A stretch of 64,000 nt of DNA from a virus, in the IMG/VR virus record IMGVR_UViG_3300017917_001573, positions 30,972 to 94,971 of that record; one strand, 5' to 3'. The translations under genes were made by a program, and so were the position numbers. This document shows positions 41,680-62,027 of this stretch, in pieces. The notes under the pieces are model-generated. The model did no database searches, was not told the DNA's origin, and saw only the letters and a list, made by a program, of their open reading frames with translations. Positions within the stretch are counted from its first letter, which is position 1. Every line of letters begins with the position of its first letter.

Positions 41680-42888
41680 TTAACAAGACACAACTACTCT
41701 TTTTTCCAAAGATACTTTTGCGCTATTCAACATCTCTTTTACAGATTTAATTTGATTAACTGTATATTCTTCTGGTACAAAACCATCTCTTTCAGTAGAA
41801 TATAGTTTTTCAGAAATCATCTGTTCCATTTCTTCTACTACATTGTTGAAATGTTCATCATCCAATACTTCCAAAGATTTTTCTTTGTATCCTTCATATT
41901 CTTCTTGAGACAATTCTTTCACGATATAAATAGAAGTCGATCTAATTTTTTGTGCGCCATCTTCTGGTACAGAAAGAACATCATATGGATTAACTAGACA
42001 CAATAGATTAGTATCACCATAAGAGAATGATTTTTTATTATAAGACCATGCTGCTGAGTGAATACCTTTGGAACAAGTATTTCTAGAATTAGTATCACAA
42101 TATTCTTTTGGAATACGTGTTGTTTTACCTACTTGATAATACATATTATCTGTATATTGTGTACCATCCAAATACCAAACGTGTTTAGAATGATGTGCAG
42201 CTTTATACCATACTTCTGATGTAGATACTTTCACTTCTTCTTTAGTATTATATTTTGTATACAACTCTGCAAGATTACCTACTGCCCCTAAACTTCTAGA
42301 ACTTACTTTAAATGTATTACCGTCTGTATGTACATAAAAGTTTTGCGGATTTTTATGCCATTGTTTTCTAACCATTCTATACAAATCTTCGTATGGATTA
42401 GCTACATCAACTAATTCAGTTGTGGTTTTCTGTTCTTTGTAACCTTGACGTAATGTTACAATCAATCCATTTTTAGAAAGTACAAAACCTGTATTTTCTA
42501 AAAAAGCACACAATTCATTTCTTACACGAATATTTGGATTCAATACTAGAAGTTTCCAAAAGTTTTCTACTGATTGTTTGTATTCATCGGAACCATTGGT
42601 CCAAGCATTTACAATAGCTTTTGGTACAGGTACATCAATACCTTTCATATACAACAAATTGTCGATGATTTCAAAACAACTATCTTCTGTAGATACACTA
42701 TTGACTAATTTTTTATCAGAACCTTTTGGAAGATTTACTTGATTAATTAGAGCAATTGCATCATCAATTTTATTTTCTAAAATAAGACTTTTTACAGCTT
42801 CAATATTTTGATTGGTAACATATGTTACACCATCTACAATAAGCGTTAAACTGTTTGGTCTAGCAATAAATTTAAAAGTTTGTTCCAT
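41680..42888 (-). CDS. rIIB: rIIB-like protein
   Basis: A 402-residue protein. The layout follows T4-family rIIB: an N-terminal small domain, then P-V-P-K-A-I-V-N, L-L-V-L-N-P-N-I-R-V-R-N-E-L-C-A-F-L-E near residue 110-130, and a C-terminal C-S-K-G-I-H-S-A-A segment that corresponds to the 'CSxGLHV' site of the family. It follows the rIIA homologue at a 21-base distance, the same pairing as in T4. RIIA/RIIB are membrane-associated proteins involved in lysis inhibition and exclusion of superinfecting or defence systems in T4; the role here is inferred. It carries the TTGTTTTAC-type leader. Confidence 0.75.
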   Translation of the reverse strand: MEQTFKFIARPNSLTLIVDGVTYVTNQNIEAVKSLILENKIDDAIALINQVNLPKGSDKKLVNSVSTEDSCFEIIDNLLYMKGIDVPVPKAIVNAWTNGSDEYKQSVENFWKLLVLNPNIRVRNELCAFLENTGFVLSKNGLIVTLRQGYKEQKTTTELVDVANPYEDLYRMVRKQWHKNPQNFYVHTDGNTFKVSSRSLGAVGNLAELYTKYNTKEEVKVSTSEVWYKAAHHSKHVWYLDGTQYTDNMYYQVGKTTRIPKEYCDTNSRNTCSKGIHSAAWSYNKKSFSYGDTNLLCLVNPYDVLSVPEDGAQKIRSTSIYIVKELSQEEYEGYKEKSLEVLDDEHFNNVVEEMEQMISEKLYSTERDGFVPEEYTVNQIKSVKEMLNSAKVSLEKRVVVSC

Positions 42889-42904
42889 TTTATTTATTTA
42901 ATTT

Positions 42905-42913
42905 TTGTTTTAC
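42905..42913 (-). promoter_or_regulatory. Conserved leader element (GTAAAACAA on the - strand) before rIIB
   Basis: GTAAAACAA begins exactly 25 bases before the rIIB ATG and is followed by pure A/T. The same nonamer at the same distance precedes the SSB-like gene and, at 26 bases, the 166-residue gene. Confidence 0.45.
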
Positions 42914-45324
42914 TGATTTTGTTGATAATAGTCGTAAATCTTATCAATATAAGATGTTACATATTCTTTTGGTTTTACTTGAAATATGTTTTTTAAGCGT
43001 ATACTAAAACTACCTGATAGGAAATCATAATCTGTATATACAGAAATACCTAATTCTTTTATTTTATTGAATAACTCTAGTTTGAGAGTATTTTCATCAA
43101 TGTAATAATTATCGCTTGCTTTTTCATCAATCTTTTTATCATACTCTAACGCTAATTCATTTAATACATCCAAATGTTTTGCTAAAATATGTTCTTTTTG
43201 ATGTTTATGTTTTACAATTTTGCAATTAGGGAATACGTTTTTAATACGTTTTATTTCAGTAGTTTTATCTACCGATTTTTCAAATGGTAAATCAATATTA
43301 AACTTTCCAGAATATATGTTACATAGTCTTTCAATATCATCTTCTTGTACACCTTCATATACATATTCATCAACGTGATATGATTTAAAGTATCTAGGAA
43401 TGATTGAAATAAATTTATCCAATGTAATACAATTCTGATAATTTTCCAAGATATATTTCTTCAACTTAGTTGAACATAAAATCACTTCAAACAAATCATA
43501 TTTTCCGTAGTATTTTTTAAAAAGAATATATTGATTGTACGGATCAAATATTTTAGAAATATTGGTTATACCATTTCTGTATACAAAAGATTTTTTAGAA
43601 TATAAACTTTGAGAATCATCTCTATCTAAAATAATGAATTTCTTTATAGAGTTTTGATCTGTAATTTTATCGTATATATCAGAAAATTTACTGTATTTTA
43701 AATTCTTGTAAAAGCGAGTTCCAATTGACATACCTGTAACTTTGTAATCACCCCAAGTTTTTTTTACACTTTCTGATTTTGCTTTACGTTCTTTATCACT
43801 ACTTCTCTCTGGTTTAGTAGGTTCTATATCATCCAAATAAATAGAATTACTTTCAATTTGTTTATACCACCATTCTAAATATTCAAAGAAGTGTTTAATA
43901 AACAATTTTCTGTTAGTGCATGTTTTAGCATACGACACATCTTGATTATCTATTTTTTTAAGTATAAACTTGATAAGTTTCTTTTTCTTAGTATTAGACA
44001 ATACAAAATTGGATTTATCTATGATATATTGAAATTTAACATCATTGTTTTCTAGTGTTTTGATTTTATTTCTTTTATAATCATCAAATAAAACCACTTT
44101 ATCTGTAAAGTTAATACTATTGATTATATCCTCAAGTGAAAGATATGCAGATGTAACTCTTTGTTGATGAGCTAAATAGTTTTTACAATTACTAAAAAAC
44201 TTTTCTGCGTATATACGAGATGAAATAAATGCATCAAATAATCTTTCGCTTGCTCCAAAATCGGTAATATATGGTTTTAAAACATTGTTATCAATAATAG
44301 AAGAACAGTTAAATGTTACTTGTGATCCATCAAAATGACTAAGTTTGTACTGATAGTTGATACCAACTTTTACAAAATCAGAAATATGTGTAATAGCTTT
44401 ATTGTTTTCAATTAGTTGATCTGTAAGTTCTTGTTTGAATCGTTCTAACTTTTCTTCAAAAGCATTAACGCTTTTTTCATCCCAAATAATTTGCTCTCTG
44501 TTTGGTACAACACTTAATTCGCCAATTTCAAATCTCAAACAAATATTAGGAGACATATTATACAAATTATGTTTTCTAATTAAATCATCTGAAATAGGGT
44601 ATCTTACTGGACCTAACAACAATCCCATTTTATGAAATCTTGTATAGTTCTGATCAATATAAGAAAACGTCTTTTGTTTAAAAATAGTAAAGTTATTTTC
44701 TAAAAAGTCATAATACAGATTTTCAAAGAAACAGGTTTGTGCAAATGTTTTAGTTTTAAAGTTGTCTTTGTCTGAATGTTTAATTGGAATTCTGATTTCA
44801 ATACCTGTTTTAGAATCTTCTTTAAACTCTTCTGTATGCAACATATCTCTTTTCAATTCACTGGTCATAGGATCTACATACAAGATATATTTTGTAATAG
44901 TACCTTCGTAGTATGAATCTATGAAGAATTCTTCTGTATAAGAAAATGCAGATTTCATACCAATACCAAAACCACCAATCAAATCATTACTATTTCTTTT
45001 TGAACTAGACAATAAGTTTGTATACAACTCAATGTCTGATTGACACAAACCTTTACCATAATCTCTTACACAATAATATAATCCTGATTCTGATTCATCA
45101 AAATAAACCATAATAGGTTCAGTAGAATTATTTTCTTTATTTGCATCTGCTGCATTCGAAATATATTCTCTACAAATAGATCCAATAGGATCAGAATACA
45201 AATTCTTGGTCATCATTCTAACCATCATTTGCATACTCTGAGCATCGTTAACAATACCAATTGTTGATCCACCTAAACCTTGTGCTACCGCACCTTGTTG
45301 TTTTTGTTCATGTTGTATAATCAT
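42910..45324 (-). CDS. rIIA: rIIA-like protein with GHKL ATPase domain
   Basis: An 804-residue protein. The N-terminal about 260 residues are a GHKL (gyrase/Hsp90/histidine-kinase/MutL) ATP-binding fold: R-E-Y-I-S-N-A-A-D-A (N-box, residues 53-61), D-Y-G-K-G (88-92) and G-G-F-G-I-G (117-122). The rest is a long Lys/Tyr/Asn-rich region with no motif. Its pairing with the rIIB-like gene downstream supports the name. T4 RIIA is likewise a GHKL protein. The start overlaps the upstream gene's stop by 4 bases. Confidence 0.8.
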   Translation of the reverse strand: MIIQHEQKQQGAVAQGLGGSTIGIVNDAQSMQMMVRMMTKNLYSDPIGSICREYISNAADANKENNSTEPIMVYFDESESGLYYCVRDYGKGLCQSDIELYTNLLSSSKRNSNDLIGGFGIGMKSAFSYTEEFFIDSYYEGTITKYILYVDPMTSELKRDMLHTEEFKEDSKTGIEIRIPIKHSDKDNFKTKTFAQTCFFENLYYDFLENNFTIFKQKTFSYIDQNYTRFHKMGLLLGPVRYPISDDLIRKHNLYNMSPNICLRFEIGELSVVPNREQIIWDEKSVNAFEEKLERFKQELTDQLIENNKAITHISDFVKVGINYQYKLSHFDGSQVTFNCSSIIDNNVLKPYITDFGASERLFDAFISSRIYAEKFFSNCKNYLAHQQRVTSAYLSLEDIINSINFTDKVVLFDDYKRNKIKTLENNDVKFQYIIDKSNFVLSNTKKKKLIKFILKKIDNQDVSYAKTCTNRKLFIKHFFEYLEWWYKQIESNSIYLDDIEPTKPERSSDKERKAKSESVKKTWGDYKVTGMSIGTRFYKNLKYSKFSDIYDKITDQNSIKKFIILDRDDSQSLYSKKSFVYRNGITNISKIFDPYNQYILFKKYYGKYDLFEVILCSTKLKKYILENYQNCITLDKFISIIPRYFKSYHVDEYVYEGVQEDDIERLCNIYSGKFNIDLPFEKSVDKTTEIKRIKNVFPNCKIVKHKHQKEHILAKHLDVLNELALEYDKKIDEKASDNYYIDENTLKLELFNKIKELGISVYTDYDFLSGSFSIRLKNIFQVKPKEYVTSYIDKIYDYYQQNQ

Positions 45325-54628: not shown

Positions 54629-55263
54629 AAACCAAAAGCTTTAATGGTATGTTGGAAAGGATTACCTTCAATATTTTTAACTAAGTCTAACATTTGTTGT
54701 GCAAGTTCTCTAGTTTCAGCTTGAGTATCTGGTTTTAGACGAAGATCAAATAAATGTAAAAAAGCTAATAAACTACCAGTCCAAATAAATGTTGTATTAA
54801 GGTTAAGTGGTAATATAGTTCTTGCTTGTTCTTTAGATACTCCTAATTCAAGAAGTTTTTTATAAGCTGTTGTGCATACATCGTGTACTTGATTTTGTAT
54901 AAAATTAGCGTCTTCTTGATTTTCAATTAACCCTTCACTACCTTGCTTACTATTAGTAGATTGTTTTCTCCACTCTTTAATAGTAGTATAACTATCACTA
55001 AAATCCACATATCTACCACTAATACTGTTAGCACTTAATCCAACTTGATGTTTAAAAAGCTGTCTTTCAACATAAATCGGACAAGTGATTCTAAATTGTA
55101 ATTGAGGATGTCTAAATGGAGCAATATGTTTGTGTTTTACCAAATATTTAATTAATCTTTCATCGTTGTCATCAAATACAATTTTACTTTTACCATAAGA
55201 TACTCTTGCAGCATTAACAACCATTAAATCATCACCAAAGTGTGATAATAATTCTACGTTCAT
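54625..55263 (-). CDS. thyX: Flavin-dependent thymidylate synthase
   Basis: A 212-residue protein. Residues 71-85 hold the ThyX signature in the phage-style spacing (K-H-Q-V-G-L-S-x-N-x-x-S-x-R-Y), where R-H-R-x-x-S is usual in cells. S77, N79, S82, R84 and Y85 are retained, and Q73 replaces an Arg. It makes dTMP from dUMP using FAD/NADPH, so it needs no ThyA. It overlaps the HNH gene stop by 4 bases. Confidence 0.92.
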   Translation of the reverse strand: MNVELLSHFGDDLMVVNAARVSYGKSKIVFDDNDERLIKYLVKHKHIAPFRHPQLQFRITCPIYVERQLFKHQVGLSANSISGRYVDFSDSYTTIKEWRKQSTNSKQGSEGLIENQEDANFIQNQVHDVCTTAYKKLLELGVSKEQARTILPLNLNTTFIWTGSLLAFLHLFDLRLKPDTQAETRELAQQMLDLVKNIEGNPFQHTIKAFGL

Positions 55264-55757
55264 AAATAATATTTTTTTAAAGTATGATTAAACTTTATAA
55301 TTCCTTTTTGATATAATTCAAATGCTATTTTTTCAAGTGAATCATGTATTAATCGATGTTCCGATAAATTCTTACATAAAATCAAATTTGAAATATCATT
55401 ATTTTGTTTATCTCCATCAATATGATGAATTTGTTCTCCTGCACCACCTTTTACTGTTTTTAATTTTCTACCTATGTATTCTTCGTATATTAATATGTGT
55501 TTTCTTTTATACACTTGTCTACCTGATTTTAAAAACAAACCAGGTATTTTAACCATTATATACCCATCGGAACTAACATATTCTCCACCTTTCCATCTTT
55601 TACTATTGTTTTCTGAAAATTGAGGACGTTTAATATTTTTTTGAACACTTTTAGAATAGCAATCTTTACAGTAATCCGTCTTTTTTCTTTTTGTTGATTG
55701 TTTTGAAATAGTGTAATGTTTTTTACAACATTTACATACTACTTGTACTTTATCCAT
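55260..55757 (-). CDS. Free-standing HNH homing endonuclease
   Basis: A 165-residue protein. The N-terminal C-K-C-C plus C-K-D-C forms a zinc-ribbon-like site. R-W-K-G-G precedes a typical phage HNH lead-in, and the catalytic part is Q-I-H-H-I-D-G-D-K-x-N-N with N-L-I-L-C and H-R-L. This is the HNH_3 class common as homing endonucleases in phages. It sits immediately before thyX with its own promoter-like element and probably arrived as a mobile insertion. No intron is visible in thyX. Confidence 0.85.
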   Translation of the reverse strand: MDKVQVVCKCCKKHYTISKQSTKRKKTDYCKDCYSKSVQKNIKRPQFSENNSKRWKGGEYVSSDGYIMVKIPGLFLKSGRQVYKRKHILIYEEYIGRKLKTVKGGAGEQIHHIDGDKQNNDISNLILCKNLSEHRLIHDSLEKIAFELYQKGIIKFNHTLKKYYL

Positions 55758-57597: not shown

Positions 57598-58044
57598 TTA
57601 ACTAAATAAAGATTCTAACCAATCATTTAACACACTAGATGATTCATTAATTAAATGTGTGCATTGTTGTATAGGAGTATCTATATGATATTTCACATAT
57701 CCTCCAAAACTATTTTTGTTAGCACCCACTCTTAAATCCAAACCGTATTTAGTAGATGTATTTTTTAATGTTTTGTTTCCCGTATATCGAATCCAGAAAT
57801 GTCCACCACCAGATTTAGTTTTGTAATTAAACGTATTGTTTATTTCAAAAAGAACTGAATGTGGGATATTTAAGAATCCATTTTTACCGTTTTTATTGTC
57901 TACATCTAATATAACAATATTTTCAGATGGACATACTGCTAAAGCATATCCTTCTGGTATATCACCTTTAAAAAATGTATTGTCTGGTAACAATGACCAT
58001 TTAATCAAAGGTTTATTGTCTGGTTTAAGTAGAAATGATTTCAT
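57598..58044 (-). CDS. Minimal prim-pol (bifunctional primase/polymerase N-domain)
   Basis: A 148-residue protein that contains little beyond an archaeo-eukaryotic primase core. The metal site is I-L-D-V-D (D47, D49), followed by K-S-G-G-G-H-F-W (H82) and the third acidic residue in G-L-D-L-R (D103), with a conserved G-G-Y after it. This matches the AEP prim-pol N-terminal family. A second, unrelated primase (DnaG-like) is present in the same block. Possible roles: specialised priming, gap repair or an early function. No helicase is fused to it. Confidence 0.72.
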   Translation of the reverse strand: MKSFLLKPDNKPLIKWSLLPDNTFFKGDIPEGYALAVCPSENIVILDVDNKNGKNGFLNIPHSVLFEINNTFNYKTKSGGGHFWIRYTGNKTLKNTSTKYGLDLRVGANKNSFGGYVKYHIDTPIQQCTHLINESSSVLNDWLESLFS

Positions 58045-58391
58045 TAGAAAATATATGTTCTTTTTGCTCCATCACATCTCCACCAATTACCATACTGATG
58101 GTCATATGTATAATCTAATACTTTATGCACTTCTTCTTCAAGTCCAGGTGTCCAAATAGATCTGTCATATACTTGTACAAAAGCATTCCAAAAAATACTT
58201 TTTACTTCATCATATGTTAAGTATTCCATGAATTCTACTTCATAAGAAAACATATTCAAATAATCTAAATATCCGCATGCAATAACAGCATCTGAATTTC
58301 TTCTACCTTCCGTAAATTCAAGATTATTTGCTTTAAAAAATGTAGCTAATTTTTCTGTAATTTCTTTTACAGCTTCTTCTTTTGTTCTCAT
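58044..58391 (-). CDS. Hypothetical protein, 115 residues
   Basis: Overlaps the prim-pol start by one base and follows a 63-residue gene by one base. Helical N-terminus, aromatic-rich C-terminus (W-W-R-C). Unknown function; it may accompany the prim-pol. Confidence 0.5.
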   Translation of the reverse strand: MRTKEEAVKEITEKLATFFKANNLEFTEGRRNSDAVIACGYLDYLNMFSYEVEFMEYLTYDEVKSIFWNAFVQVYDRSIWTPGLEEEVHKVLDYTYDHQYGNWWRCDGAKRTYIF

Positions 58392-58392
58392 A

Positions 58393-58584
58393 TTATAGAT
58401 CGTTATAAGGGTTAGACTCTTTCCATTCTTCCAAGAATTCTTCTAGTTCAGATTTACCTAAACCTAGTTCTTCAAAAGAATCTTTTCTATAAATTCTTGC
58501 CCAAGTCTCTTTATTATTTGGTAAATCTAAAGAAGATTTACTTGGATTTTGTAGTGCATTTAATAAATCATCAATTGTTGCCAT
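58393..58584 (-). CDS. Small hypothetical acidic protein
   Basis: A 63-residue product starting MATIDDLLNALQ, mostly helical with acidic residues, ending L-E-E-W-K. It abuts neighbours at 1- and 2-base gaps. Unknown. Confidence 0.5.
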   Translation of the reverse strand: MATIDDLLNALQNPSKSSLDLPNNKETWARIYRKDSFEELGLGKSELEEFLEEWKESNPYNDL

Positions 58585-58586
58585 AC

Positions 58587-59336
58587 TTAAAGTTCTTTAA
58601 TTTTTGTTTGAAGTAATTTGATTTGTTCATCTGAAATTTCATGTGTTTCTAACCATACTTCACAAATCTGTTTTACAATTTGTGTATTTGTTTTTGCTAT
58701 TTCTAACTTATCATTAAAGGTTTCAGAAGAAAATACACTTTGATAGTCTTGTATACTGTCGATTAATTCCATGTATTTTAATACAACAGGATCGGTATTA
58801 TATCCTCTTTTGTGGTATTTGAGACAACGTTCTAATTGTCTCAATACTCTAGAAATACTCCATACTTCTGTATTGTAGTATGCAGGATTCCATTTGTTCC
58901 AATTTGCTTCTTTTCCTGGATTTCCAGTTAAGTCTAATTCTTGTTTTGTTTTTAGATCATAACCTTTACAAATAATATTTAAATCAAAAGACGACAATAC
59001 ACCAAAAATATTAGTGCAATCTTTTTTAAAAACAATATTAATTGGAACACATGTATTGTAAAAGAATTTAATGGTTTGTACACCTGACACATGTTTGTTA
59101 TTGAATGACTGTTTATGCATAAATTGTTCAGCTTTCCATACTTCAAGTGGATCTAAAATACAAAACATATCATTGTAGTACATAGCATAAAACAATTTAC
59201 CAAACGCTTTTTCTGAATACAGAAAAACATCTACATCTTGTCCTTCAAAATAATCTAATAAACAAGATCCTGTAATACATCCATCAACATCTTGTTGTTT
59301 TAACCATGCAATTGCATCGTTTATTTGTTCTTTCAT
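58587..59336 (-). CDS. Nucleotidyltransferase-like protein
   Basis: A 249-residue protein. Residues 20-38 show the NTase superfamily signature I-T-G-S-C-L-L-D-Y-F-E-G-Q-D-V-D-V-F: a G-S loop and D34-x-D36 on the next strand. A further acidic site cannot be placed surely, so it may be an incomplete or divergent enzyme. The helical C-terminal half is typical of tRNA-nucleotidyltransferase- or AbiEii/MenA-like families. It follows a terminator, so it starts a new transcript. It might transfer nucleotides to RNA or protein; unknown in detail. Confidence 0.55.
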   Translation of the reverse strand: MKEQINDAIAWLKQQDVDGCITGSCLLDYFEGQDVDVFLYSEKAFGKLFYAMYYNDMFCILDPLEVWKAEQFMHKQSFNNKHVSGVQTIKFFYNTCVPINIVFKKDCTNIFGVLSSFDLNIICKGYDLKTKQELDLTGNPGKEANWNKWNPAYYNTEVWSISRVLRQLERCLKYHKRGYNTDPVVLKYMELIDSIQDYQSVFSSETFNDKLEIAKTNTQIVKQICEVWLETHEISDEQIKLLQTKIKEL

Positions 59337-59371: not shown

Positions 59372-59395
59372 AAGAGGGATATTTCTATCCCTCTT
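59372..59395 (-). terminator. Intrinsic terminator closing the MoxR-VWA unit
   Basis: A 10-bp perfect stem (AAGAGGGATA / TATCCCTCTT) with a GAAA tetraloop and a T-rich tail on the - strand. It lies 22 bases beyond the 166-residue gene. Similar hairpins recur at 33085, 41631 and 46653. Confidence 0.85.
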
Positions 59396-59417
59396 ATACA
59401 AAAAGCTTTCTTTAGTA

Positions 59418-59918
59418 TTAAAGAAGATCAATTACTTCCAATAATGCCGTTTTTACTTCGTCCAATGTATAAATACGATTTAGTTTAGTAATTCCTTCAT
59501 CGAAATACAATCCAAATTCTTCAAATTCTTGAAGTAGACCATAACCATTGTTATTCAAAAATGTATTTACTTTGTTAATCTTGTTAGACTCTTTTTGGAA
59601 ATTAGCAAAAGCTAGTGTTTCTTTCTTTTGTTTTTCAGCCAATTCTTGTTTTGGTGCAGTTGGAAGAGCAACAAATGAAATAGATTTTGAAGAATTCAAT
59701 TCTGCATCAACCAATCGTTTAATTTCTTCAATAGTAGTAACTTCATCAGAAACCAATTTCTTACCTTTAGCAATTTTAGCAAATGTTACAATGTACTCTG
59801 CGTGTTGTTGAACTTCTACAAATTTAGCATGTGTTACAGGTTTGTTACTTTCACCTACTGTCATGTAACCACCATTAATCAATTTAAGGTCTGCTGATTT
59901 TACAAATGTTTTGTTCAT
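59418..59918 (-). CDS. Hypothetical protein of the MoxR-VWA unit
   Basis: A 166-residue protein starting MNKTFVKSADLKL. Residues about 90-115 form a Lys/Glu/Gln-rich helix, and the C-terminal 50 residues include a Phe/Tyr-rich acidic helix. No known family. It sits 30 bases after the VWA gene, has a strong leader element and is followed by a terminator, so it is probably made in quantity. It may be the substrate or third partner of the MoxR-VWA pair. It may equally be an unrelated abundant protein. Confidence 0.55.
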   Translation of the reverse strand: MNKTFVKSADLKLINGGYMTVGESNKPVTHAKFVEVQQHAEYIVTFAKIAKGKKLVSDEVTTIEEIKRLVDAELNSSKSISFVALPTAPKQELAEKQKKETLAFANFQKESNKINKVNTFLNNNGYGLLQEFEEFGLYFDEGITKLNRIYTLDEVKTALLEVIDLL

Positions 59919-59935
59919 AATTTTAAAATTTAATT

Positions 59936-59944
59936 TTGTTTTAC
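59936..59944 (-). promoter_or_regulatory. Conserved leader element before the 166-residue gene
   Basis: GTAAAACAA on the - strand, beginning 26 bases before the ATG, followed by A/T only. Matches those before rIIB and the SSB-like gene. Confidence 0.45.
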
Positions 59945-59948
59945 TTTA

Positions 59949-60947
59949 TTAATTTAAATATTTAACCCAATCTTTGATATGAATTACTTCTGTTGGTTCA
60001 AACCAATCTGCATATCCCGCAAGGTTTTTATTGGATGTAGTATGCAAAGAAATAACTTTGTTCACTTTCCATTTGCACAATTCTTGACCTTGTTGTTTAC
60101 TAATAGTAGTAGCACGTCCCCAACCATAAGAAGGACTATGATCATCACCAAATACAATTGCTGTTTCATAATGACGTTCATCTGATGAAACAAGGTTTTT
60201 GAAGTATACTTGATCATTGTCCATACCATTAGAATATACAGTTTGCATATCTAAATCATACAATTCTTCATATGTGTAAAGTGTTGAAATAGAACCTGTA
60301 ATCAATACATCTGCATAGAATGATTCACACAATTGTTTACTCAATGTCAAACAAGTAGTAGATACAGCTCTAGGAATAGACCCAGAAATGTCAATAATGA
60401 TCAGATTTTTTTTTGGAGAGGTTAATTCCAATGTGCCATACATACCATCCAATTTCTTGTTGTACATATATGGATTGAATACATTGAAATTGTGAATATT
60501 TGTCTCAATTGCAGATTCCAAATCACTCAACCATAATGGAAAAACATTTAGGTTTTTTAGTACATTGATGTCTACAATACAACAATTGTCTCTTACAAAA
60601 TCTTTAAACAAAGATGTGTCTTCACCTAGTTTTGGAATTGTTAAATCTGGATCATCATATACAACACCTTCTTTTGTAAAATCCATATGTGTAGTTTTAT
60701 CAAAAGAAAAAGTTTTACAATCAATAAAACCATTGTCCTCTAAAATCTTTTTAAAATTAAAAGGATAACCTGTTCTAATTGCTTGTTGATACAATACTTC
60801 ATATTCTAACATACGAACAATGTATTTTTCCATACTAGCATCTGCTACAATAAAAGGTAAACCAATAGGAATATCTTTTATTTCTGATCTACTAGTTACA
60901 AACCACAGATCAGGTATTTTCAGTTTTTTACTTTCTAATAATTTCAT
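59949..60947 (-). CDS. VWA-domain protein, MoxR partner
   Basis: A 332-residue protein. The MIDAS metal site is D186-I-S188-G-S190, with a downstream I-V-F-G-D-D that fits the third metal site. The 180 residues before it are an unrelated helical domain. The gene lies 3 bases after a MoxR-type AAA+ ATPase, a pairing known from MoxR/VWA systems (RavA-ViaA, CobS-CobT, NorQ-NorD) that remodel target proteins or insert metals. No metallo-enzyme target gene is nearby, so the client is unknown. Confidence 0.75.
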   Translation of the reverse strand: MKLLESKKLKIPDLWFVTSRSEIKDIPIGLPFIVADASMEKYIVRMLEYEVLYQQAIRTGYPFNFKKILEDNGFIDCKTFSFDKTTHMDFTKEGVVYDDPDLTIPKLGEDTSLFKDFVRDNCCIVDINVLKNLNVFPLWLSDLESAIETNIHNFNVFNPYMYNKKLDGMYGTLELTSPKKNLIIIDISGSIPRAVSTTCLTLSKQLCESFYADVLITGSISTLYTYEELYDLDMQTVYSNGMDNDQVYFKNLVSSDERHYETAIVFGDDHSPSYGWGRATTISKQQGQELCKWKVNKVISLHTTSNKNLAGYADWFEPTEVIHIKDWVKYLN

Positions 60948-60950
60948 AAT

Positions 60951-62027
60951 TTATTTATTTAAAAAATATTTTTTAAATTGTTCAGTTGTGATTTCTGTGT
61001 AACCTCTTTTTTGTAATGTTTTTATTGACATTTTATCACTATAATGCTTAAAATTACTGTGATAGTCCTCACAACAAATAATATCATTTAGTTCAAAATC
61101 AGCATCTGTTCTAACAAGCTCTTTATTATCTTGAAGCAATGAAATATTTGATTCTGTAACCTTTAATGCCCATTTATCAGGTAATACAAATGTGTCAACG
61201 TCAACTTCCTCAACTGATTCTTCTGGTACAACAATACTTTTACTAAATCGAATTAATTCTAACCAACTAATTGTTTCATTTGGTTCTAATACTCGATCGC
61301 CACCCAACTCAATTGGTTTATCCAAAGAGTTTTTGATAAATGTAGATAGAATAGGATTTAAGATATTATAGTAAGGTGTTGGAACATTATGAATCATCAT
61401 ATCAACATTTTTATCAATACTTCTTGCACTGTTAAAGTTATTGAGACCTTTGAAGTTTTCTGATTCTACAAGTTGTGAAAGTTTCATAGCAATGTTTTTA
61501 GGCATTCTATATTTATCCATGATATAAGGAATCCAAGCATTTTTGTCAAATTCAAATTCATACCATATAAATCTTTCTTTGATTTGTGGTGTCAATGGAA
61601 CCATACCTTGTGGATTAGCTGCTGCCACAATCATAATGTTAGGTAATTCTTTACCTGAAATCATAGTACGTTGTTCTAATACTGTCAAACAAGCATTTAG
61701 TACAGTAGGATTACCATTCAACAATTCATCAAAGAAAAGGATGTCTCCATCTTGTAGATTGTTAAGTCTATCGAAATCATAATAAACCATCTTTTGTTCA
61801 GTATGAGATGGGACACAAATACCACTAATTTCAAAAGGTGACATTTGAGATGTAATTAGTTCTACAACTTTTACACCTTTCTTTTTAGCTAATTGGTTTA
61901 CAAAGGTTGATTTACCAATTCCAGGGTTTCCAATAAATAATGGTACAATTGATTTTCGCAAACTCGGATTGTTGTAAATTCCTTCTAAAATAGGAAGCAT
62001 ATCTCCCATCTTAATTTTTTCAAACAT
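60951..62027 (-). CDS. MoxR-type AAA+ ATPase
   Basis: A 358-residue protein. Walker A is G-N-P-G-I-G-K-S (Lys39), Walker B is I-L-F-F-D-E (D100, E101), sensor 1 is A-A-A-N-P (N138) and the arginine-finger region is I-K-E-R-F (R152). The spacing and the V-L-N-A-C-L-T-V-L-E segment match MoxR-like ATPases. The C-terminal part is a helical lid and a variable domain of about 120 residues. It probably acts as a hexameric chaperone with the VWA protein encoded next. Its leader is A-rich with a TAAAAACAAA element. Confidence 0.85.
   Translation of the reverse strand: MFEKIKMGDMLPILEGIYNNPSLRKSIVPLFIGNPGIGKSTFVNQLAKKKGVKVVELITSQMSPFEISGICVPSHTEQKMVYYDFDRLNNLQDGDILFFDELLNGNPTVLNACLTVLEQRTMISGKELPNIMIVAAANPQGMVPLTPQIKERFIWYEFEFDKNAWIPYIMDKYRMPKNIAMKLSQLVESENFKGLNNFNSARSIDKNVDMMIHNVPTPYYNILNPILSTFIKNSLDKPIELGGDRVLEPNETISWLELIRFSKSIVVPEESVEEVDVDTFVLPDKWALKVTESNISLLQDNKELVRTDADFELNDIICCEDYHSNFKHYSDKMSIKTLQKRGYTEITTEQFKKYFLNK

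Follow-up and report, generated by a model that had tools for sequence, protein, structure and literature searches.

On what does a MoxR–VWA pair act when it is carried by a crAss-like phage? The window, a stretch of 64,000 nucleotides (positions 30972-94971 of a virus record of 94,971 bp), holds three consecutive genes on its − strand (62027–59372) for a MoxR-type ATPase, a VWA-domain protein and a 166-residue protein (p166), followed by a hairpin. A preliminary description had read them as a closed three-gene unit and had found no client gene in the window, naming p166 or a virion or host complex as the target. The three genes were confirmed. The unit does end at a conserved terminator, but it had been cut too short, as the module continues with a nucleotidyltransferase-like gene (NTase), p63, p115 and a PrimPol-like gene (Table 1). 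The claim that a client gene is absent fails, since plausible clients (NTase and PrimPol) adjoin the unit.

Table 1 Features of the MoxR–VWA module (window coordinates)
Feature	Position	Strand	Basis
MoxR-type AAA+ ATPase, 358 aa	60951..62027	−	Pfam, PHROG, conserved motifs
VWA-domain protein, 332 aa	59949..60947	−	26-sequence alignment; AlphaFold2 and Foldseek
p166, 166 aa	59418..59918	−	Alignment of 26; synteny
Intrinsic-terminator-like hairpin, end of MoxR-VWA-p166 unit	59372..59395	−	10-bp stem, then T-rich tail
Nucleotidyltransferase-like protein (NTase), 249 aa, GS...DxD motif	58587..59336	−	Motifs, NTP_transf_2, hhalign
p63, small conserved protein, crAss-like clade only	58393..58584	−	Synteny
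p115, small conserved protein	58044..58391	−	Synteny; weak far homologue (hhalign 45%)
PrimPol/AEP-like primase domain, 148 aa	57598..58044	−	Pfam, PHROG, conserved motifs, synteny

The DNA polymerase B, MCP, portal and giant virion protein match those of crAss-like phages at low identity, which supports placing the window phage among the crAss-like phages (Crassvirales). The module shares the − strand with genes for DNA polymerase, helicases, ligase, primase, ThyX and RNR, and the opposite (+) strand carries large virion-type genes, among them a relative of a crAss virion protein. The crAss-like replication block proposed earlier is therefore borne out both by the four marker proteins and by the replication genes on the shared strand. 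MoxR/VWA matches were absent from crAss001, phi14:2, cr271_1 and the second half of cr107_1. The pair was also missing from Leptolyngbya phage Lbo-JY46, which MCP and portal place among the closest relatives. As neither the well-known crAss-like genomes tested nor Lbo-JY46 has the pair, the module belongs to an environmental crAss-like sub-lineage.

Other genes were observed in the same region. The replication block contains rIIA-like and rIIB-like genes (window 41680-45324), and in N4, too, rIIA/rIIB-like genes lie close to the MoxR-VWA pair. An HNH_3 endonuclease ORF (window 55260-55757) overlaps the start of thyX and is probably a homing-type insertion.

The MoxR-type protein matched AAA_5 (1.6e-12) and bpMoxR (4.6e-11) in Pfam and PHROG 1297 'ATPase' (5e-27), and the solved structures nearest to it by sequence search were Midasin (3e-14) and RavA (9e-5). 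When distinct relatives were aligned, Walker A K[ST], Walker B DE, the sensor-1 N and the RF arginine were present in 54/54, and sensor 2 was kept in nearly all of them; the Walker and sensor residues reported earlier as intact are conserved in these relatives. With Walker A, Walker B, sensor 1, arginine finger and sensor 2 in place, the window protein is assigned by its motifs to the MoxR AAA+ family. MoxR matches with E<1e-5 were found in 220 phage records. The window protein also has a C-terminal extension of ~70 aa (window 60951-61200) that is absent from most short relatives; the tail is variable, because other relatives bear different extensions.

The VWA gene is separated from MoxR by an intergenic gap of 3 bp. 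Its product consists of a novel N-terminal region and a C-terminal VWA domain with an intact MIDAS (D186-x-S188-x-S190, T217 and D268). The DxSxS and the downstream MIDAS T and GD were invariant across 26 aligned relatives, so the full D-x-S-x-S noted in the preliminary description holds beyond the window. On gene order and motif (an adjacent VWA gene with MIDAS DxSxS-T-D), the two genes are classed as a candidate MoxR-VWA chaperone system. The best Foldseek matches of the AlphaFold2 model were VWA/I-domain structures (probability <=0.99, E ~4e-3). Pfam and PHROG searches gave no match for the window VWA and none that was consistent across its relatives, of which only 1/61 contained HExxH.

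Alignment of 26 relatives established p166 as a real conserved family. Its AF2 model is moderately confident (pLDDT 78.5) and mostly helical overall, with an N-terminal four-strand sheet followed by helices. Foldseek searches of this model against PDB and viral models found no structural match. No significant Pfam match was obtained for p166, and Pfam and PHROG searches across its members gave nothing consistent. PDB sequence searches with p166, VWA or NTase yielded nothing usable. When 50,697 phage records were searched by tblastn, zero matches were obtained with p166, the window VWA or the window NTase. The hairpin that follows p166 had been called a terminator, and this is well upheld: among the relatives, 21/31 loci have a terminator-type hairpin (stem >=7 bp, then a T-rich tail) 3' of p166, where shuffled sequence predicts 0.09, and 0/26 have one after VWA. 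The 'strong leader' ascribed to p166 is not borne out, as sigma-70-type and Bacteroidota-type promoter motifs were not above chance and none was present at the p166 leader.

Beyond the terminator, the NTase has a G-S then D-x-D motif (G23, S24, D34 and D36, invariant in 11 sequences from two clades), by which it is putatively classed as Pol-beta-type. NTP_transf_2 was matched by 3/21 of its relatives (best 3.8e-4). Many Pol-beta-type NTases carry a third Asp. In the region, on a later strand, where this third catalytic acidic residue is expected, the 11 sequences have an invariant Asn (N100), and because it replaces the Asp the protein may be inactive or a binding fold; D118 is also invariant in the 11 and could serve as the third acidic residue. 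The PrimPol gene product matched Pfam Prim-Pol at 4.2e-4 (just under the cut-off) and PHROG DNA polymerase/primase at 2.2e-5. Its DxD, GxH (sxH) and D-L-R positions are conserved in 36 sequences, and these motifs (DxD, GxH (sxH) and a third acidic motif) assign it to the AEP type.

IMG/VR was scanned separately with VWA, p166 and NTase as seeds, and the three scans returned mostly identical contig sets. p166 was flanked by VWA and NTase in 29/29 crAss-like contigs with room (VWA-seeded), and VWA was present in 59/59 contigs with room (NTase-seeded), counts that include several near-identical or incomplete contigs. The tie of p166 to MoxR-VWA proposed earlier is thus strict in crAss-like relatives. 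Nearly all crAss-like contigs had the order MoxR-VWA-p166-NTase-p63-p115-PrimPol, and PrimPol was upstream of MoxR in two (L100 and L101). Common ancestry could explain the shared order within this clade. A cellular origin was considered and rejected: one genome scan gave only two small MAG contigs, which are probably phage. These short contigs (L055, Kordia; L056, Sulfurovum) carry module genes and are probably co-binned phage DNA; correct binning of L056 would point to a relative beyond the Bacteroidota.

A second, distant uncultured clade (L107-L128 and L134-L155) was found, with contigs of ~51-57 kb where long. Its VWA is ~25-33% identical to the crAss-like VWA and had zero tblastn matches in the 50,697 phage records. 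Here MoxR, VWA and NTase recur in a block with SSB-like and YqaJ genes of replication/recombination type, and all VWA-seeded contigs with room carry both NTase and a remote p166. The latter aligned with p166 over 120 columns (hhalign 97%, E 1e-10, an E-value that refers to a single comparison), and non-homologous families of the same loci, used as a control, all remained below 8%. Candidates for PrimPol (75%) and p115 (45%) were also seen, and neither homology is secure. With PP denoting PrimPol, at least three gene orders occur in this clade: MoxR-VWA-PP-NTase-p115-SSB-p166-YqaJ, MoxR-VWA-NTase-p115-p166-PP-SSB-YqaJ and, in L153, NTase-p166-VWA-MoxR-PP-p115-SSB-YqaJ.

Actinophages carry a smaller set. 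In Araxxi, Burro, Hannabella and MissAmericana, MoxR and VWA lie beside genes for an ssDNA-binding protein, an exonuclease and DNA polymerase I, and an NTase homologue lies a few genes upstream of the pair (hhalign 97-98%). One NTase relative (L068) had MissAmericana as its sole tblastn match among the 50,697 records (6e-4). The MoxR of the Burrovirus Microbacterium phages and of Arthrobacter phage MissAmericana was the best match to the window MoxR among the reference phage proteins tested (3.5e-22). Their VWA lacks HExxH, as does that of the window, but the N-terminal region is not clearly homologous (hhalign 34-90%, covering the VWA domain only). In Burro/MissAmericana, MoxR is gp16/gp20, VWA is gp15/gp19 and the NTase homologue is gp20/gp23. 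Neither p166 nor PrimPol was found in the actinophages examined. The proteins gp17/gp21 (157-160 aa, directly upstream of MoxR) were tried as the p166 counterpart and rejected (hhalign 0.1%). Where MoxR and VWA are kept, the linkage of p166 therefore stands in part: it belongs to the same module in the far clade, usually several genes away, but was undetected in the actinophages, which keep the NTase.

These gene orders demonstrate that the predicted MoxR, VWA, p166, NTase-like and PrimPol-like proteins are kept as one linked set. Judged by gene content, the partner that MoxR-VWA keeps in the largest number of lineages is the NTase, p166 is second and PrimPol is probable. Since the gene set is kept while its order changes, a shared function is indicated rather than mere common descent of the segment, although p166 and NTase may merely be neighbours needed at the same time. 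We give about even chances to the reading that MoxR and VWA form an AAA+ remodelling machine that is part of a module for replication/DNA-end processing.

How such a machine could work is suggested by NorQ-NorD, in which the VWA protein binds the AAA+ ring through its C-terminus and a finger, and the client through its MIDAS (PMC9976466, PMC13036017). By analogy, the MoxR hexamer would dock the VWA protein, the MIDAS metal would capture an acidic residue on the client, and ATP turnover would twist or loosen that client. The window VWA has a conserved C-terminus (W327 and L331 in the 26-sequence alignment), a parallel to NorD-type ring binding that is suggestive only. NorQ-NorD, RavA-ViaA and CbbQ-CbbO also combine a MoxR AAA+ with a MIDAS VWA partner, and the mechanical principle is expected to be alike; unlike them, the window pair has no metalloenzyme, respiratory or rubisco client nearby. 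The likeliest clients would be the module's own enzymes, NTase first, or an NTase/PrimPol complex for priming or end processing, with p166 as its adaptor or regulator.

Alternatively, p166 could be a dedicated client or third core subunit of MoxR-VWA, with NTase and primase as separate functions downstream of the terminator. In crAss-like phages p166 strictly follows VWA, the conserved terminator directly behind it implies that MoxR, VWA and p166 form one transcription unit, and in L153 p166 adjoins VWA even though the order is rearranged. However, in most of the far clade p166 is several genes from VWA, next to p115, SSB or YqaJ genes, and in actinophages MoxR, VWA and NTase persist with no p166 detected. 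We consider this explanation unlikely.

In its fullest form, the remodelling-machine reading is that the MoxR–VWA motor drives an NTase/PrimPol complex for priming or DNA-end processing in which p166 is the adaptor; this undescribed machine would be common to crAss-like phages of Bacteroidota and the large uncultured ~53-kb clade, and reduced in actinophages. This proposal is tentative, and we rate it somewhat below an even chance. If true, it would be the first known MoxR–VWA system acting on nucleic-acid enzymes. Many phages carry MoxR–VWA pairs, yet ATV, an archaeal virus, is the only one with known clients in the literature searched; the genes that have remained associated despite repeated reordering make up a short list of candidate clients. 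The core (MoxR, VWA and NTase) is also present in phages of Microbacterium and Arthrobacter that are in culture, which makes the question directly testable in laboratory hosts. The earlier label 'undescribed' does not apply to phage MoxR–VWA pairs as such, which are known from N4, jumbo phages and ATV, but no description of the present gene set was found in the open literature searched (subscription papers were outside its scope).

The N4-like phages (Schitovirus) bear on a further explanation, in which the target is a host complex to be remodelled or a defence complex to be inactivated, and the neighbours of the pair are incidental early or middle genes. Their gp24/gp25 are core genes with middle-phase transcription and are kept without the neighbours seen here (PMC4193335). 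In addition, bacteria have MoxR-vWA-containing conflict systems (PMC7159879), and the window MoxR matches Pfam bpMoxR. Against such a host take-over or counter-defence role, the association of the module with phage replication genes survives rearrangements, and the rapid turnover usual for counter-defence genes is not seen in VWA, which retains 41-60% identity to the window copy throughout the crAss-like clade. We regard this role as improbable. The bpMoxR MoxR-vWA-beta-propeller conflict system was itself rejected as a model, as the third gene product, p166, is mostly helical with no propeller and no significant Pfam match.

Other virus-encoded pairs like that of the window are those of jumbo phage group 2.2 (PMC7824862) and archaeal virus ATV (p618/p892; PMC4124505). 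Both are tied to virion or tail assembly, whereas the window pair has a replication context, and in the jumbo phages the vWA forms part of a peptidase fusion, whereas the window VWA lacks such an HExxH domain. Bacillus phage 0305phi8-36 has a MoxR and a linked second subunit (orf66/orf63) in a non-structural arm, as in the window; the accessible part of its account does not mention an NTase/p166 module, and the likeness is one of description, not of sequence comparison (PMC2147016). A virion-assembly chaperone, for which the jumbo and ATV pairs are precedents and which very large proteins in short-tailed crAss-like virions could need, is improbable here, since replication/recombination genes surround MoxR-VWA in all three phage groups examined, the window pair and the large virion-type genes lie on opposite strands and the window VWA is without the HExxH domain of jumbo/N4 type; gene position thus does not favour the virion complex named earlier as a target.

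N4 gp24 and gp25 resemble the window pair in being a MoxR-type ATPase followed by a DxSxS VWA protein, and gp24 is detectably homologous to the window MoxR (E 1.5e-10). They differ in gp25, which has an N-terminal HExxH metallopeptidase-like region that the window VWA lacks, and in their neighbours, which are dCTP deaminase and others with no p166 match. As HExxH is so rare among the VWA relatives and gp25 was missed by the window-family VWA HMM, a pair of gp24/gp25 type was rejected as the identity of the module. In several public records, gp25-like proteins of schitoviruses (L047:5489-6694, L049:5206-6519 and L050:4974-6197) are labelled 'HNH endonuclease', as is PHROG 1314. These proteins bear the VWA MIDAS D-x-S-G-S and, where inspected, an HExxH-type region, and the label looks like a propagated error.
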